Origin: an uncultured Actinomycetes bacterium
GTDB taxonomy: Bacteria; Actinomycetota; Acidimicrobiia; Acidimicrobiales; RAAP-2
Direction of reading: 5' to 3'
NCBI GenBank assembly: GCA_903870905.1
Contig: CAIQEU010000039.1
Location: 1-64,000, forward strand
DNA: 64,000 nucleotides
The notes beneath the pieces are model-generated. The model made no database searches. It was not told where the DNA came from and saw nothing but the letters and a program-made list of their open reading frames with translations. How positions within the stretch are numbered: the stretch's first letter is position 1; each line of letters starts with the position of its first letter. The position numbers and the translations under genes were made by a program. This document shows positions 1-6,108 of this stretch, piece by piece.

Positions 1-723
1 GGACTCGGCATCATGGTCCACAACCTCCGTCTAGCATCTCGACAGCCGCCGCGAAGGGCGGAGGCATTCGCCGAACCATCCACAGATCTCCTCATGAGAT
101 CGCTGTTCTGCGGCTACCTCAGCGATAGCAACTTCACCGAAATCTTCTCGGGCCCCAACAATGCGCTCATCCCCATCCAACGTGCAGCGAGCGCTGTTGG
201 CTGGAAGCTTGGGATTGCTGCCGAAGTGCGCGCTCTCGCTAATCCCCTCATTCGCCACTGCGACCCGAGCGAGTGGTTCGGTGGCTGCCACAGAGCTCGA
301 GGAGCACCGCCATGGAGCCTTCGCACTCTCCGGTGGTTCGAGGTCTCGCTGCGGCGATCATGGTTGCCACCTTCCTCGGGATCAACGCGATGGGGCCATC
401 GTCCGTAGTGTCTCCGTCACAGATCTGACCCGTCCTCGCATTCGCGCAAATCTCATCCCCCGCCACAGGAGCCTCTCCATCCCCCACAACCTCGGAAGGG
501 TGCTCGCACGGGCGGCAGCCGCGTCGCTCGCAAGCGTGGCCCGAGAGCCGAGCACCTGGATCTCAATGCGGCCGTCGTCGCATTGGCCATGGTCCCGAGG
601 TTGAAGATGGCTCCTGCCCGTTGGACTCCGGCCCACCTCCAGCGATCGTCGGCCCAGCGAATTGGTGGTGTGGTCGTGGTTGTGGCGACAGCACTGCTGC
701 TGAGCGATCCCATGATCCGCTGA
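1..723 (+). pseudogene. Decayed third copy of the adjacent membrane-protein family (5' end outside window)
   Basis: Translated piecewise, this stretch matches the C-terminal two thirds of the proteins at 830-2329 and 2528-3937, but the match jumps frame. Frame 1 (1 to about 300) begins GLGIMVHNLRL and continues to SLFCGYL, aligning without gaps to GLAVMIGKVRV...SLLCGYL of the intact neighbour. Frame 3 (312-425, then a stop) gives VVRGLAAAIMVATFLGINAM against VLRGIAAFVVFVAFLGLNWM. Frame 2 (about 455-545) gives SLSIPHNLGRVLA against SLRYFIPQNLGKIFA. Frame 1 again (550-723) ends ALLLSDPMIR-stop against ILQLSDHLIKT-stop. At least three frame changes are therefore needed. The protein is divergent from both intact copies, so it looks like an old paralog in decay. 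The N-terminal part lies beyond the left edge. Sequencing error is less likely given the number of shifts and the general divergence. Confidence 0.8.
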
Positions 724-829: not shown

Positions 830-2329
830 ATGGCTGGCATGCACGAAATCAGCCGCTTGGCCAATTTCATCCTTGCGACGCATTCTCCCCATGCAGCGAC
901 AGCGGGGGCGGCTGCGGTTGCGGCGCGCGCCGCAACCGCCGCTCGGGCAGGTTCTGCAGCGAGAGCTGGTTCTGCAGCGAGAGCTGGGTCGGCATCTCGG
1001 GCTGGATCCGCAGCACGTTCAGGCTCTGCGGTGAGAGCAGGATCTGCGGCAAAGGCGGGCCGGGCCGGACGGGGCCATGCAGGAGGGCAGAGTCACTCAT
1101 CCACGGGCGAAGCGAAGGGCAAGGCTGGAGGAAAGCCCCGTACCCGCAAAGTGGAACTCCGCACCGGATCCTTGAGTGCCGGGCGGACGCACTTGGGCGA
1201 TCAATCCATCACCTTCAGAGGTCCGGGCCAACACTGGTCTGATGCGTTATCGCTCGCTGCTCCGGTGACGCTTGCGAAGTACTCACCCATTGCGTCATCG
1301 GTTGTTCTCGATGGTGCGTATCTGAGAGCCATGATCGGATCGTTCGCTTGGGTCCTCCCAGCAATTGCCTTCATGGCCATGACGGTGGTCGGGTTCGCCA
1401 CCGATGGACTCCGTTCACCCTTTCCCCTAGCGATGTTCTGCGGAATTCTCGCCGCTGGCGTCTTAGATGCCAGCATCGGTCTCGCCGCAACGGCTGGGGT
1501 ATTCCTTGCGTGCACAGTGCTCGGGACCGCGTTCAGCTTGAGCGGATTCACCATGCTGGTCATCTTGGGAGCGCTGTGGTGCGGCCTCGCGGTCATGATT
1601 GGCAAGGTGCGTGTGTTCCTCCGGGATTCGCCAACCGACCTCGCATCGTGGTATCGCCGCCTTGGAGACCTCACCATTGGGTCACTCCTGTGTGGCTACC
1701 TCGGCTTCAAGTTCATCGGCATTCTGAGCGGCCCGAATGATTCGTTCGCCGCCGTCCACGCCCGCGCCAACGCAATCGGCTGGGCACTCGTTGGTATTGG
1801 GGCAGGCAAATACCTGATCACGTCATTCGCTTGCCATTACTACCCGGAACGGATGCGGATCTGCGTACCTCTCGAGTTCCCTGCTCGACCCAAGCCCATC
1901 GATCGAGTTTCGCTGGTGCTGCGAGGCATTGCCGCCTTCGTGGTCTTCGTTGCCTTCCTCGGCTTGAACTGGATGGTGGTCACCCTCGTCATCCTCTACC
2001 TGATCGACGTGATCCTCCCCAACCTCGTGCAACCAACGGATGCGCATCCATCGCTTCGGTACTTCATTCCCCAGAACTTGGGGAAGATCTTCGCCCTGAC
2101 CATCGTGAGCACCCTGGCCACACTGGCACTCAAAGATCACGTGTCCTCCACCTACAACCTGGTGATCGACGCGCTGTTCGTCGTGATGGTGGTCGCCATT
2201 GTCAACAACACGGCCGCCGCGAAGTGGCAACCGCGTGAGAGCAATCGCCCCTGGCTGCTGTACTCGGGCGGGTTCATTCTCGCCCTCTTGACGATCTTGC
2301 AGTTGAGCGATCACCTGATCAAGACCTGA
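830..2329 (+). CDS. Polytopic membrane protein with Ala/Arg/Gly/Ser-repeat N-terminus, family unknown (paralog A)
   Basis: I do not recognise this 499-residue protein. The first ~165 residues are hydrophilic and strongly basic. Residues 41-76 are six copies of a G-S-A-A-R-A type hexapeptide, followed by a Lys/Gly/Arg-rich stretch. From about residue 168 the protein is hydrophobic with roughly nine or ten membrane segments, and a conserved SLLCGYLGFKFIGIL segment sits mid-protein. It closely resembles the next gene along most of its length, including the ending ILQLSDHLIK. The ATG at 830 is preferred because it aligns with the ATG at 2528 of the paralog and has a -10-like hexamer 6 nt upstream. 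No enzymatic motif, signal peptide or Walker box is visible. The topology suggests a transporter or membrane scaffold with a cationic cytoplasmic tail that could bind nucleic acid or another polyanion; this is inference only. Confidence 0.85.
   Translation: MAGMHEISRLANFILATHSPHAATAGAAAVAARAATAARAGSAARAGSAARAGSASRAGSAARSGSAVRAGSAAKAGRAGRGHAGGQSHSSTGEAKGKAGGKPRTRKVELRTGSLSAGRTHLGDQSITFRGPGQHWSDALSLAAPVTLAKYSPIASSVVLDGAYLRAMIGSFAWVLPAIAFMAMTVVGFATDGLRSPFPLAMFCGILAAGVLDASIGLAATAGVFLACTVLGTAFSLSGFTMLVILGALWCGLAVMIGKVRVFLRDSPTDLASWYRRLGDLTIGSLLCGYLGFKFIGILSGPNDSFAAVHARANAIGWALVGIGAGKYLITSFACHYYPERMRICVPLEFPARPKPIDRVSLVLRGIAAFVVFVAFLGLNWMVVTLVILYLIDVILPNLVQPTDAHPSLRYFIPQNLGKIFALTIVSTLATLALKDHVSSTYNLVIDALFVVMVVAIVNNTAAAKWQPRESNRPWLLYSGGFILALLTILQLSDHLIKT
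914..939. repeat. Perfect 26-bp palindrome inside the coding region of paralog A
   Basis: The left half is GCGGTTGCGGCGC and the right half is its exact reverse complement. It starts 84 nt after the A of the ATG and encodes part of AAVAARAATA. The equivalent position in paralog B also forms a palindrome although bases differ, with two pairs changed on both sides. A hairpin near the 5' end of a leaderless mRNA, or a protein-binding site, is possible. Ala-rich GC codons also favour chance palindromes. Confidence 0.7.
950..1057 (+). repeat. Six in-frame 18-bp tandem repeats encoding GSAARA-like hexapeptides
   Basis: The first two units (950-967 and 968-985) are identical, GGTTCTGCAGCGAGAGCT. 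The next four (986-1003, 1004-1021, 1022-1039, 1040-1057) are degenerate copies with the same length and mostly synonymous changes. The paralog at 2528 has a much shorter version, so the array length differs within the family. Confidence 0.85.
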
Positions 2330-2477
2330 GGGGTCGATACTGGATCAGCCATTCGCCCTCTGGCAACGCTGTGACGCAGGCTCTGGCGTCGGCACTCATG
2401 AGATCCGACCACCGTGCGCTCGAGGCCCTTCGGGACGTGAACGACCGCGAACAAGTCTCCGCAGCGCAACGAGTTCG

Positions 2478-2519
2478 TCACACATCGTTCGAAAGTGGTC
2501 AACCTTTCCCATCTAGGGT
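2478..2519 (+). promoter_or_regulatory. Putative promoter of paralog B with the same TCACACATCG motif
   Basis: TCACACATCG (2478-2487) begins 36 nt before TAGGGT (2514-2519), the same spacing as upstream of paralog A. The ATG at 2528 follows 8 nt after the hexamer. The remainder of the 198-nt gap 2330-2527 shows no gene. Confidence 0.45.
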
Positions 2520-2527
2520 CTAGAACT

Positions 2528-3937
2528 ATGAGTGCTTCCCGGGAACTCGCTCATCTCGCCCACGTGGTGTTGACCTCGCACGGCCCAAAGGCGACCACCG
2601 CAGCATCAGCAGCCGTTGCTGCTCGAGCTGCAACGGCTGCTCGAGCTGGGTCCGCTGCTCGAGCTGGAAAGGCTGCGGGAACAACCTCTTCTCGATCGAT
2701 CGCTGCCATCAAGGGGAAGGCAGGCGGCAAGGCCGGCGGTAAGCCGCTAACTCGGAAGGTGGAACTCCGGTCCGGCGCCCTCGGCGATCAGCGCCGCGCC
2801 TGGGGGGACCGCTCAGGGACCTTCGCCGCACCGGGACAGCGGTGGTCCGATGCACTCTCGGTGGCAGCTCCCCTGACTCTGGCCCGCTACTCGCCGATCG
2901 CCTCATCGATTGCAGGAGATGGAGCGTACCTCCGAGCGATGTTCGGTTCTTTGGCCTGGCTCCTCCCGGGCCTCTCCTTCGTCACGATGGCGTCCTTTGG
3001 AGTCGCAACGGATGGGTTTCGAACGCCACTCCCACTGTGGGCATTCTGTGCCGTGCTCTTCGCTGGTCTCTTCGATGCCGGCATCGGCTTCACCGCAACC
3101 ATTGGAGCCCTCCTCGCATGCATTGCGCTGGGTTCATTCTTCAGCCTTGCCGGATTCACGATGGTGGTCATGCTCGCAGCCCTCTGGTGTGGCCTGCCGG
3201 TCATGGTCGGAAAGGTTCGGGTCTACCTCCGAGACGCCCCCAACGATGTTGCGTCGTGGTATCGACGGCTCGGGGACATCACCATTGGCTCACTCCTGTG
3301 TGGCTACCTCGGCTTCAAGTTCATCGGAATTCTGACTGGTCCGAACAACTCCTTTGCTGGGATCCACAGCAATGCGCACGACATTGGTTGGTGGCTGGTG
3401 TTCGCCACTGCACTGAAGTACCTCATCACCACGCTGGCGTCCCACGGTTATCCAGAACGGATGCAGACGTGCACGTCTGATGAGGTTCCCACCCGCAGTC
3501 GTCACGTGGAACTCTTTTCCCTCGTCGGCCGCGGCACTGCGGCGTTCGTGGTGTTCGTGGCATTCCTCGGCTTCAACTGGATGGTGCTCACCCTGCTTGC
3601 GCTCTACCTCATCGACGTCATCCTCCCCGATGTGATCAAGCCCACCGATGCCCACCCAGCAGTTCGATTCTTCGTCCCCCAAAACCTCGGGAAAATCTTC
3701 ACGTTGACCTTGGTGAGCGCCTGCGCAACTATTGCTCTCAAGAGCCACGTCGACTCGACGTACCACCTCGTGATCGACGCGCTCTTCATCGTGATGGTGG
3801 TCGCCATCATCAACAATGCTGCTGCAGCTCGCTGGTCACCGAGGGAGCTCAATCGCCCATCGATCCTCTACATCGGAGGGTTCGCACTCGCGGCGCTCAC
3901 GATCCTGCAGTTGAGTGACCACCTCATCAAGGCCTGA
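2528..3937 (+). CDS. Polytopic membrane protein with basic Ala/Arg-rich N-terminus, family unknown (paralog B)
   Basis: This 469-residue paralog of the preceding gene has the same plan: a short N-terminal segment (MSASRELAHLAHVV), an Ala/Arg-rich tract with only about two G-S-A-A-R-A units, a Gly/Lys/Arg stretch, then about nine or ten membrane segments ending ILQLSDHLIKA. Identity with paralog A is high through the membrane part and low in the tail, where most of the 30-residue length difference lies. A GTG 33 nt upstream is in frame, but the ATG at 2528 aligns with the start of paralog A and is preceded by the shared promoter motif. The retention of two copies suggests they are non-redundant or form a heteromer; that is inference. 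Function unknown. Confidence 0.85.
   Translation: MSASRELAHLAHVVLTSHGPKATTAASAAVAARAATAARAGSAARAGKAAGTTSSRSIAAIKGKAGGKAGGKPLTRKVELRSGALGDQRRAWGDRSGTFAAPGQRWSDALSVAAPLTLARYSPIASSIAGDGAYLRAMFGSLAWLLPGLSFVTMASFGVATDGFRTPLPLWAFCAVLFAGLFDAGIGFTATIGALLACIALGSFFSLAGFTMVVMLAALWCGLPVMVGKVRVYLRDAPNDVASWYRRLGDITIGSLLCGYLGFKFIGILTGPNNSFAGIHSNAHDIGWWLVFATALKYLITTLASHGYPERMQTCTSDEVPTRSRHVELFSLVGRGTAAFVVFVAFLGFNWMVLTLLALYLIDVILPDVIKPTDAHPAVRFFVPQNLGKIFTLTLVSACATIALKSHVDSTYHLVIDALFIVMVVAIINNAAAARWSPRELNRPSILYIGGFALAALTILQLSDHLIKA
2608..2641. repeat. 34-bp near-perfect palindrome in paralog B at the position equivalent to 914-939
   Basis: The outer arms AGCAGCCGTTGC and GCAACGGCTGCT are perfectly complementary. 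The centre GCTCGAGC is self-complementary. Only one T-T pair (2620 with 2629) is mismatched. The core 2612-2637 starts 84 nt after the ATG, exactly as in paralog A. Two pairs in that core differ between the paralogs on both strands, so pairing is retained. Confidence 0.65.
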
Positions 3938-3957: not shown

Positions 3958-4701
3958 TCAGAATCCTCGGAGTTGGGCTTCGAGCAACGCCACGGTGTCG
4001 AGATCCCCACGCCGCTCGAGCACCTCTCCACTCCGACCCGCCGCCCACTGGAGCAGGGCGTCTGCCGATCCACCAACCGACGCCTGCGAGGGCGTCGTCT
4101 CGGTTCCCACGCCGAGACCATCGCTGCCGAGGGTGATCCTCCACTGTGCAGCACCTGTTGCGACCGTGATGGTCTGACCAGACCATTTCGAGCGGTCGCC
4201 CGAGGTTGACCATGGTGCGGTGGCGAACCACAGCAACTCATCAATGCCATCATCGGCGAGTGCAGCATCAACGGGTGTCCGTTCACCGACGGCTCGCTCC
4301 GCATCGGTCCGGTGGACGGCGGTTTCGAGGGCCATCCGGCGCCACCAGAAACCAACGGTTTGATCGTCACTCATGAAGGTTGGCGCAACCTCGTCCACCT
4401 CGCGGCGCTCCAACGATTCCATGAGTTCCCGTGCTGCGCGACCGAGTCGCTCGGGATCAGCGCGCCGGGGCTCTTGGAACGCAGCAGTGTCGGCACGAGA
4501 GGGGAACTTGCCCATCTCGAGGAGCAGGATCTTGTGCTCGTAGACCCCGGCGAGGTGATCGACGAGGTCCGCCACGGTCCACCCAGGACAGGTGGGCACG
4601 AGCGCTTCGAGATGATCCTCCCCCACAGCAATGCATCGTTCGAGGTCCCGCGTCCACAGGGCTCGATACTGCGCTGCAGTGAGTCGAGTCGAGATGGTCA
4701 T
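3958..4701 (-). CDS. Maleylpyruvate isomerase (MDMPI)-family mycothiol-dependent protein
   Basis: This 247-residue protein has the DinB-like four-helix N-terminal domain of the MDMPI family. Diagnostic pieces are CPGWTVADLVDHLAGV at about residues 38-53 and MALETAVHRTDAE at about 122-134, which carry the His and Glu residues that bind metal in this fold. A C-terminal domain of about 90 residues with a DALLQWAAGR motif follows, as is usual. Such proteins use mycothiol as cofactor or thiol donor; the substrate cannot be assigned, and maleylpyruvate is only the founding example. Its ATG overlaps the stop of the upstream gene 4698-5351 (ATGA), so the two are probably translated together. It ends 20 nt from paralog B of the membrane family, on the opposite strand. 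Confidence 0.85.
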   Translation of the reverse strand: MTISTRLTAAQYRALWTRDLERCIAVGEDHLEALVPTCPGWTVADLVDHLAGVYEHKILLLEMGKFPSRADTAAFQEPRRADPERLGRAARELMESLERREVDEVAPTFMSDDQTVGFWWRRMALETAVHRTDAERAVGERTPVDAALADDGIDELLWFATAPWSTSGDRSKWSGQTITVATGAAQWRITLGSDGLGVGTETTPSQASVGGSADALLQWAAGRSGEVLERRGDLDTVALLEAQLRGF

Positions 4702-5351
4702 GCAGGCGAGCCGTCGACGATATCGACCGGAGAGATTGCCATCGGTGAGGACGCCAAGAACGTGCTGAACTCCTCGACAGGGAAGCCAATCGCTCGGAGT
4801 TGCGCTGCCGAACGTCGCCCAGTCACGGATCGGAAGAGCTCAAACTCGTCAATCGGCAATGCCCGAATCTGCTCGACCAATTGGGGGTTCACTCTCTGGA
4901 GCCCACCGAGGAGGTAGGCCGTCGCCATGGGGATCGATGGCGCGTCTTGCGCTCCGAACACCCCAAATGCCAAGCGGAGGTCATGCTCGTGGGCTGCTTG
5001 GTCCATCACGATCTGGAGGTTGACCGGTGCGGGAATCACCGCCATGACAGGGTCGAAGGACGCGGCCGTGCCTTCGAACAGGTCGGCGAGATGAGCGACC
5101 GAATCGCCAGCATGGCGCTCCACTTGGGCCGCAGTCCATGCGTCCGATCCAGCTCCATCAAGGCGACCATTGACGATGTCGTCGATGGTCCCAACAAGAT
5201 GGCAGACCAGTTGCTGCACGGTCCACGCTGGGCATGACGGGACGATGATGGCCTCCTGGCCCGGTGCAATCGACCGCAGAAGGTCAACCGTGCGTTCACG
5301 AATGCCTTGGTAGGCAGTGAGGACTTCGGCGGCGTCAAAGGTGGTGGTCAT
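4698..5351 (-). CDS. MDMPI/TIGR03083-family mycothiol-dependent protein
   Basis: The 217-residue product starts MTTTFDAAEVLTAYQGIRER and carries CPAWTVQQLVCHLVG, the DinB/MDMPI N-terminal signature, and QAAHEHDLRLAFG with the second His/Glu cluster. It is related to, but not closely similar to, the gene it overlaps at 4698-4701. A longer in-frame extension to 5471 would run into the divergent SRAP gene and has low-complexity character. The ATG at 5351 has a -10-like TACGAT six nucleotides upstream, so that start is chosen. The two-gene operon of MDMPI paralogs suggests a coupled thiol-dependent reaction, substrate unknown. Confidence 0.82.
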   Translation of the reverse strand: MTTTFDAAEVLTAYQGIRERTVDLLRSIAPGQEAIIVPSCPAWTVQQLVCHLVGTIDDIVNGRLDGAGSDAWTAAQVERHAGDSVAHLADLFEGTAASFDPVMAVIPAPVNLQIVMDQAAHEHDLRLAFGVFGAQDAPSIPMATAYLLGGLQRVNPQLVEQIRALPIDEFELFRSVTGRRSAAQLRAIGFPVEEFSTFLASSPMAISPVDIVDGSPA

Positions 5352-5357
5352 GGCGCA

Positions 5358-5403
5358 ATCGTAGAGTCCCGGTGGTGACCGCGCTCGGCCAAAGTGCGAC
5401 AAT
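5358..5403. promoter_or_regulatory. Divergent leaderless promoters between MDMPI and SRAP genes
   Basis: On the minus strand TACGAT (5358-5363) lies 6 nt before the ATG at 5351. On the plus strand GACAAT (5398-5403) lies 6 nt before the GTG at 5410. Neither start has a Shine-Dalgarno sequence. Confidence 0.45.
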
Positions 5404-5409
5404 GGCGCA

Positions 5410-6108
5410 GTGTGTGGTCGACTCATGCTCACAACTCCCCCGGCGTCAGTGGCCCGATTCGTCGATGCCACCCTTGGAATGGCCTACGTTGATCTGCCGT
5501 TTCAGCCGAGTTGGAACGTGCCGCCGACTCGAGGAATTCCTGGCCTCCTCGATGCCCCGAATGGGTCAGGACGGGTGTTGTCGCAATTTCGCTGGGGTCT
5601 CCTCCCCCACTGGGCCAAGGACCGTTCCTTCTCGTCGAGGACGATCAACGCTCGAGTGGAGACCGTCGCGGAGAAGGCCTCGTACCGGGCCGCCTTCACG
5701 ACCCGGCACCTCATCATCCCTGTTGACGGGTACTACGAGTGGACGACACGGGGACCGGAACTCAAGCAACCCCACCTCATCACCCGCACCGACGACCAGC
5801 CCTTGCTCTTGGCTGGGCTCTGGGAGGAGTGGCGAGATCCGGCCCAACCCGACAGTGGCGTGGTTCGCTCAGCCACCATCTTGACCCGTGAGGCCAATGC
5901 CGACGTCGCCCACCTGCACGACCGCATGCCGGTGGTCGTCGAGCCCGAGTCCATTGACCTGTGGTTGACCTCGCTCGGCGAGGACGCACGACCAGCCCTC
6001 GACCAACTCCTCTCGGCGTCGCTCGGCGTCTTGGGTCATCGTCCAGTCGACCGAGCGGTGGGGTCGGTTCGCAACGACGGGCCGCACCTCATTCAGCCCG
6101 GCGACTAA
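5410..6108 (+). CDS. SRAP-family protein (SOS response-associated peptidase, YedK/HMCES type)
   Basis: This 232-residue protein has every landmark of the SRAP family. Cys2 (MCGRL) becomes the N-terminal nucleophile after Met removal. It also has NVPPTR, a WGLLPHWAKD motif, INARVETV with the active-site Asn, DGYYEW with the catalytic Glu, and HDRMPV with the active-site His. SRAP proteins form a thiazolidine cross-link with abasic sites in single-stranded DNA and protect them during replication. The GTG at 5410 is chosen because Cys must be residue 2; a leaderless -10 precedes it. Length is normal for bacterial members. No lexA-type box could be identified confidently. Confidence 0.93.
   Translation: MCGRLMLTTPPASVARFVDATLGMAYVDLPFQPSWNVPPTRGIPGLLDAPNGSGRVLSQFRWGLLPHWAKDRSFSSRTINARVETVAEKASYRAAFTTRHLIIPVDGYYEWTTRGPELKQPHLITRTDDQPLLLAGLWEEWRDPAQPDSGVVRSATILTREANADVAHLHDRMPVVVEPESIDLWLTSLGEDARPALDQLLSASLGVLGHRPVDRAVGSVRNDGPHLIQPGD

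Follow-up and report, generated by a model that had tools for sequence, protein, structure and literature searches.

Gram-positive surface proteins can hold a secreted ectodomain by C-terminal anchoring, as in the sortase/LPXTG and CWB2 systems, and SipW-TasA represents a fibre type of gene cluster. In lakes, freshwater actinobacteria rank among the most abundant cells, and they present to grazers and phages a surface that includes the proteins studied here. In Apilactobacillus kunkeei, Giant1-5 are described as giant extracellular surface proteins (PMC12863079). Most members of the family reported here are likewise surface proteins of great size encoded by small genomes. By comparison with the A. 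kunkeei giants, its membrane end is a domain of about ten helices (hereafter the core), and two of its members, the products of genes A and B, have no ectodomain at all. Like the sortase/LPXTG and CWB2 systems, the core family anchors its ectodomain C-terminally, but in place of a wall anchor it uses either a long domain of several membrane passes or a distinct multi-pass protein. Giant surface proteins anchored in the membrane are already known; what is new is the ten-helix membrane end, together with derivatives that carry only a basic tail. The core is found at the membrane end of proteins of up to about 8,000 residues. The literature searches, which covered papers outside subscription, returned no description of the core family or of how freshwater actinobacteria hold their largest surface proteins.

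Genes A and B

The window, meaning the whole 64,000-nucleotide stretch of DNA that was analysed, is the start of contig C39 in a 2.1 Mb genome that is 98% complete. Gene A (830-2329, + strand) begins with ATG and encodes 499 aa, composed of a basic tail (residues 1-115) and a multi-pass core. The A tail (830-1174, +) contains a short N-terminal helix, a conserved AAVAARAATAARA segment, AARAGS hexapeptide repeats and a Lys/Gly linker, with a pI of about 12; the A core (1175-2326, +) extends for about 384 aa from a GDxS motif, and ten membrane helices were predicted in it via homology to the B model. Gene B (2495-3937, +) encodes 480 aa when read from GTG 2495. The ATG at 2528, which would give 469 aa, is probably the true start, since from there the N-terminus of B aligns with that of A (MSASRELAHLAHVVLTSHGP with MAGMHEISRLANFILATHSP) and with those of two relatives. 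The B tail (2528-2788, +) is shorter than that of A, has the same conserved segment and carries a charge of about +12, and the B core (2789-3934, +) was modelled by AlphaFold with a pLDDT of 90.3 and a pTM of 0.86.

The two genes are tandem paralogs whose cores were 68% identical in the alignment. The dN/dS of the A and B cores was 0.17, indicating purifying selection; synonymous sites were close to saturation, so that most of the more distant pairs and most tails gave no reliable value. The original prediction of two adjacent paralogs, each joining an Arg/Ala/Gly/Ser tail to nine or ten membrane helices, agrees with the open reading frames, the tails and the ten-helix core model. The neighbors of A and B were ordinary enzymes, with no linked partner gene, and no shared operon was found for the pair, the upstream neighbors being unlike in G000, G001/G004 and G040. 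Scans for promoters and terminators yielded nothing beyond chance. No match to B was obtained in plasmid and phage records (tblastn), and pattern matches in viral contigs encoded no relative of B, giving no sign of a mobile origin.

Sequence, fold and topology of the core

The AlphaFold model of the B core showed ten long hydrophobic helices, one of which (181-212) was broken at D194 within a GxxDAxxG motif. In A and B, as in the rest of the family, the ten-helix core follows a GDxS...D...SP...DxxYLRA stretch. The core alignment from the profile search held 48 sequences with 17-68% identity to B. Residues D142, Y145, L146, R147, A148, G151, R242, R258, D261 and G359 (B numbering) were invariant in core alignment A3, and both A and B have them.

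Pfam and NCBIfam gave no match for A, B or 27 to 48 homologs beyond scattered noise in single members; matches of the latter kind (Amj 0.004, TauE, DUFs), and one to EutS in one member only (E 0.005), were dismissed. The PDB sequence search with A and B likewise gave only noise, such as STING at E 0.6. Foldseek with the core models reached a best E of 0.16 to 0.26 with TM below 0.22, and a viral fold search with the core returned nothing. An ECF S component was at the top of both VIA fold lists from two models (Z 7.2 and 7.0, rmsd 4.7 to 5.0, 139 residues), which is in the noise range for helical models. This weak likeness concerned core helices 1-5 (Z about 7, noise level); unlike ECF S components, the core is twice as long, and no ECF genes were seen near it. 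Known transporter families (MFS, MATE and others) gave no profile match, with Foldseek E values of 0.16 or worse. The core family is thus undescribed, in that it has no entry in Pfam, NCBIfam or PDB. The earlier claim that neither part of the proteins matches a known family held in every Pfam, NCBIfam, PDB and fold search made, and neither profile nor fold searches produced a clear match to a known transporter.

The mean number of Lys and Arg residues per core loop was, in order, 0.1, 0.02, 3.2, 0.3, 2.0, 0, 2.9, 0.2 and 2.0, with 0.4 in the C-terminus. We infer from the alternating loop charges that the C-terminus of the core is outside, and the C-terminal NHL propeller found in some members agrees with this placement. 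Directly behind the pre-core helix, clusters of Lys or Arg (KK in L137, RRYRRR in E-type relatives) suggest that the N-terminus of the core is inside. For an N-in/C-out arrangement the crossings must be odd in number; helix 181-212 would then be re-entrant or cross twice, starting and ending outside. The core may have a further activity, since ten helices exceed the need of an anchor.

Architectures of core-bearing proteins

In the commonest architecture, a signal peptide, a long ectodomain, an Ala/Gly-rich membrane helix, a flexible linker and a C-terminal core of ~390 residues are joined in one polypeptide. These giants span 1,000 to 8,000 residues and belong mostly to freshwater actinobacteria. 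The 5' end was closed at 36 loci; of these, 23 encoded more than 900 aa and seven encoded 540-900 aa with a small ectodomain. Pfam analysis of six core-bearing surface proteins identified Fn3 (13 stretches in one protein), Ig-like, LRR_5, List-Bact repeat and NHL families in the ectodomains, and no known sorting domain. The largest core-bearing open frames, of 8,169 residues (in a 1.4 Mb genome) and 7,098 residues, came from one Microbacteriaceae genus. Their core loci are G922:C1:115713-116978 and G1084:C10:169379-170644; a frame of 6,930 residues containing the core, at locus G365:C1:59875-61032, was flagged with an internal TAG. All three are probably among the largest genes of their small genomes.

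The core also occurred apart from the ectodomain. In split units, a secreted gene ending in an Ala-rich helix and an acidic tail was followed by a core-only gene that abutted or overlapped it. Contig C61 of the genome that carries A and B has such an acidic-tailed surface-protein/core unit; an apparent internal stop in this copy reads as the boundary between the acidic-tailed upstream gene and the core gene. Two-gene units near strain IMCC26077 comprised a large secreted gene and then a core gene with a small ectodomain of its own, mostly with a 4-bp overlap (L055, L114, L118, L132 and L137). Secreted proteins at L137 1-7470, L132 3981-6818, L114 4155-7079, L136 1-1974 and L118 3-332 had in common a basic C-terminal domain, GLKxGxKIxxxxKR, with exactly one strong match per genome in five of five acI-like genomes, just upstream of the core. 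The idea that this domain marks many cargos was refuted by the single strong match per genome. In a further form, a clade II core (see below) was fused to a C-terminal NHL beta-propeller, giving proteins of about 930-960 aa (G031:C25, G056:C69, G307:C4, G914:C16, G865:C6 and others) that mostly co-occurred with clade I giants.

Tail-only proteins were of two types. The D-type includes A, B and the copies in G001 and G004, as well as that in G040, which has a hydrophobic segment in front; the E-type has an extra helix ahead of the basic segment. A and B had no signal peptide, ectodomain or pre-core membrane helix, and the maximum KD15 of their tails was about 1.05. The split cores of clade II likewise lacked all three elements; membership in the family rests on the core and not on these typical but not universal elements. 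Being tied to surface proteins through fusion as well as through gene overlap, the core would be a membrane platform for surface proteins, a role that the gene context supports well. The membrane anchor proposed in the original prediction was borne out insofar as the homologs form the membrane end of giant surface proteins, a sense that the prediction had not foreseen.

Distribution and phylogeny

The core family was present in 36 of 172 genomes of the window's family, 20 of 395 of its class, and 10 of 396 sampled across the phylum, of which three were false; weak phylum-level matches in G525, G626 and G705 were discarded as off-frame or as unrelated ORFs. Of the 151 genomes in the family of strain IMCC26077, 31 were positive, part of them through a remote branch. 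A scan of one genome collection recovered 49 loci, nearly all in MAGs labelled as actinobacteria, many of them from lakes by isolate name. Two core loci labelled Acidobacteria are probably mislabelled: one had the same core as G056 of the window's family, and the other grouped with an actinobacterial row at a branch length of 0.02.

In the core tree, A and B were sisters (support 100/99), and the D-type genes of G001 and G004, one in each, came next (100/100). Together with giants of the window's family, the D-types and E-types made up a clade of 15 rows (100/99), in which the nearest fork, on which the choice of the closest giant depends, had a support of 87/85. Clade II, made up of split and NHL forms, was separate (100/99). 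Giants are likely the ancestral form, and A and B would most simply have arisen by losing the ectodomain. The A/B pair itself is, by the tree, a lineage-specific duplication. The suggestion that the two intact copies form a heteromer is weakened by this origin, since A and B derive from one duplication and the D-type gene is single in two sister species (G001 and G004). Clades I and II, on the other hand, co-occurred in the window's family: 11 of the 172 genomes had both, 2 only clade I, 7 only clade II and 152 neither (Fisher p=3e-11, uncorrected for genome relatedness). This suggests that clade I and clade II proteins work together, and that they are a better heteromer candidate than A with B.

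The remote branch consisted of a protein of 516-535 residues, found in many genomes of the IMCC26077 family, whose profile matched the core over 334 columns (hhalign E 2.8e-20). It sat in a conserved cluster with an archaeal/SipW-type signal peptidase (a TIGR02228 match above the cut-off), a collagen-repeat protein and several small secreted proteins. Such a surface-type gene cluster supports a general role of the core in surface structures. As in SipW-TasA fibre clusters, the remote branch adjoins a SipW-like signal peptidase, here together with a collagen-repeat protein; A and B, in contrast, have no such genes adjacent. Clusters of this kind were located at L221 1342-8424, L226 1165-8389 and in L218, all from acI-like genomes.

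The basic tail

The A tail (residues 1-115) had a charge of about +15. Its six-residue AARAGS repeat gave a period-6 self-match of 0.65, reached by 0 of 2000 shuffles; the period was weaker in the B tail, where 31 of 2000 shuffles reached it. The first two repeat units of A were identical in DNA, and several units used differing synonymous codons, showing that the repeat is not merely a recent DNA slippage artefact. The TAASAAVAARAATAARA segment, or a recognisable variant of it, was common to eight proteins of two genera (G000, G001, G004 and G040). The cores of these proteins were down to about 25% identical, and persistence of the segment at such divergence indicates that the tail is a conserved element and not a passing repeat.

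The tails were originally likened to histone H1. Linker histone H1-like and bacterial Ala-Lys tails are, like those of A and B, Ala-rich, strongly basic and of low complexity. The A and B tails differ in being Arg-rich and membrane-linked, and when searched alone against Pfam they matched 0 families, including histone or HU-tail families. Moreover, the basic segment sits where the giants have their Ala-rich pre-core membrane helix or linker. The comparison with H1 was therefore not upheld. The homologous basic segment of E-type relatives, however, is flanked on both sides by predicted membrane helices; the topology rules applied above would place it outside, so a cytoplasmic position of the A/B tail is tentative.

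Possible role of A and B

The reading that we favor, with modest confidence, is that A and B are ectodomain-less members of the surface-protein platform and that their cationic tail, probably cytoplasmic, docks an anionic partner. In a minority of actinobacterial lineages, chiefly plankton of lakes, the core would serve as the multi-pass platform on which very large surface proteins are held. With its N-terminus in the cytoplasm and its C-terminus outside, the tail of A and B would be cytoplasmic, and these ectodomain-less subunits would bind their partner electrostatically. The most economical candidate partner, encoded in this very genome, is the acidic cytoplasmic tail of the C61 split unit; possible alternatives are anionic lipid and nucleic acid. 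G040 had tail-bearing copies and no clade II unit that we could find, so an acidic-tail partner would not be a general rule. A more elaborate version, which we put forward tentatively and consider unlikely, is that the core is a new machine that exports or holds the giants as a clade I/II pair in streamlined freshwater actinobacteria. A and B would then be adaptors in which the cationic tail takes the place of a covalently attached ectodomain and recruits a separately encoded surface protein by its acidic tail. The platform role is experimentally approachable, as gene replacement is feasible in Rhodoluna lacicola and Aurantimicrobium photophilum (PMC11577799) and an Aurantimicrobium MAG contained a core fragment.

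The ten hydrophobic helices, the invariant charges (D142, R147, R242, R258 and D261 in B), the helix broken at the conserved Asp of GxxDAxxG and the noise-level ECF S component at the head of two fold lists would also suit a transporter or channel that is regulated by the A/B tail and that gains a sensor or receptor in the giants and NHL fusions. However, this is unlikely, because Foldseek gave nothing better than E 0.16 to 0.26 (TM below 0.22), no Pfam transporter matched, no substrate gene is adjacent to A/B, and repeated coupling to giant structural ectodomains is unusual for transporters. Placing the tail outside, on a core that is N-out with ten crossings, would let it bind to anionic polymers of the cell wall or to linkers in other surface proteins; an even crossing number suits ten helices, and both the E-type architecture and the extracellular look of the G/S/D/E linkers of giants point this way. 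We regard it as quite unlikely, since export of a cationic tail of 90-115 residues is hard to expect from proteins with no signal peptide or hydrophobic N-terminal segment, and since loop L1 has no positive charge. A pI of about 12, a charge of +12 to +15 and Ala/Arg repeats could instead mean that the tail is a DNA-binding tether between nucleoid and membrane. This appears distinctly improbable for a tail that uses Arg instead of Lys, matches no histone or HU-tail family, is homologous to a surface-protein linker region and lies, in its E-type copy, between two membrane helices. That A and B are functionless remnants of a giant gene heading for loss is very improbable indeed: the third copy is a pseudogene and giants are likely ancestral, but the core dN/dS is 0.17, the tail is kept across species, and intact D-type genes occur in three species of the genus as well as in one species of a second genus.

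Degraded third copy and flanking genes

A degraded third copy at positions 1-723 (+) of the window matched B residues 222-468 (counting from ATG 2528) collinearly but in shifted frames and is, from its sequence, a pseudogene. Over its first 165 bp it shared 97% identity with the end of contig C25 (L053), which carries the 5' part of the copy, encoding the preceding residues, and is interrupted there by an ISL3-type transposase ORF. The transposase ORF may explain the assembly break at this point. On the other side of the pair, window positions 3958-5471 (-) contained a pair of neighboring genes whose products have mycothiol maleylpyruvate isomerase N-terminal domains; a gene with an SRAP domain came after them, and all are of an ordinary kind.
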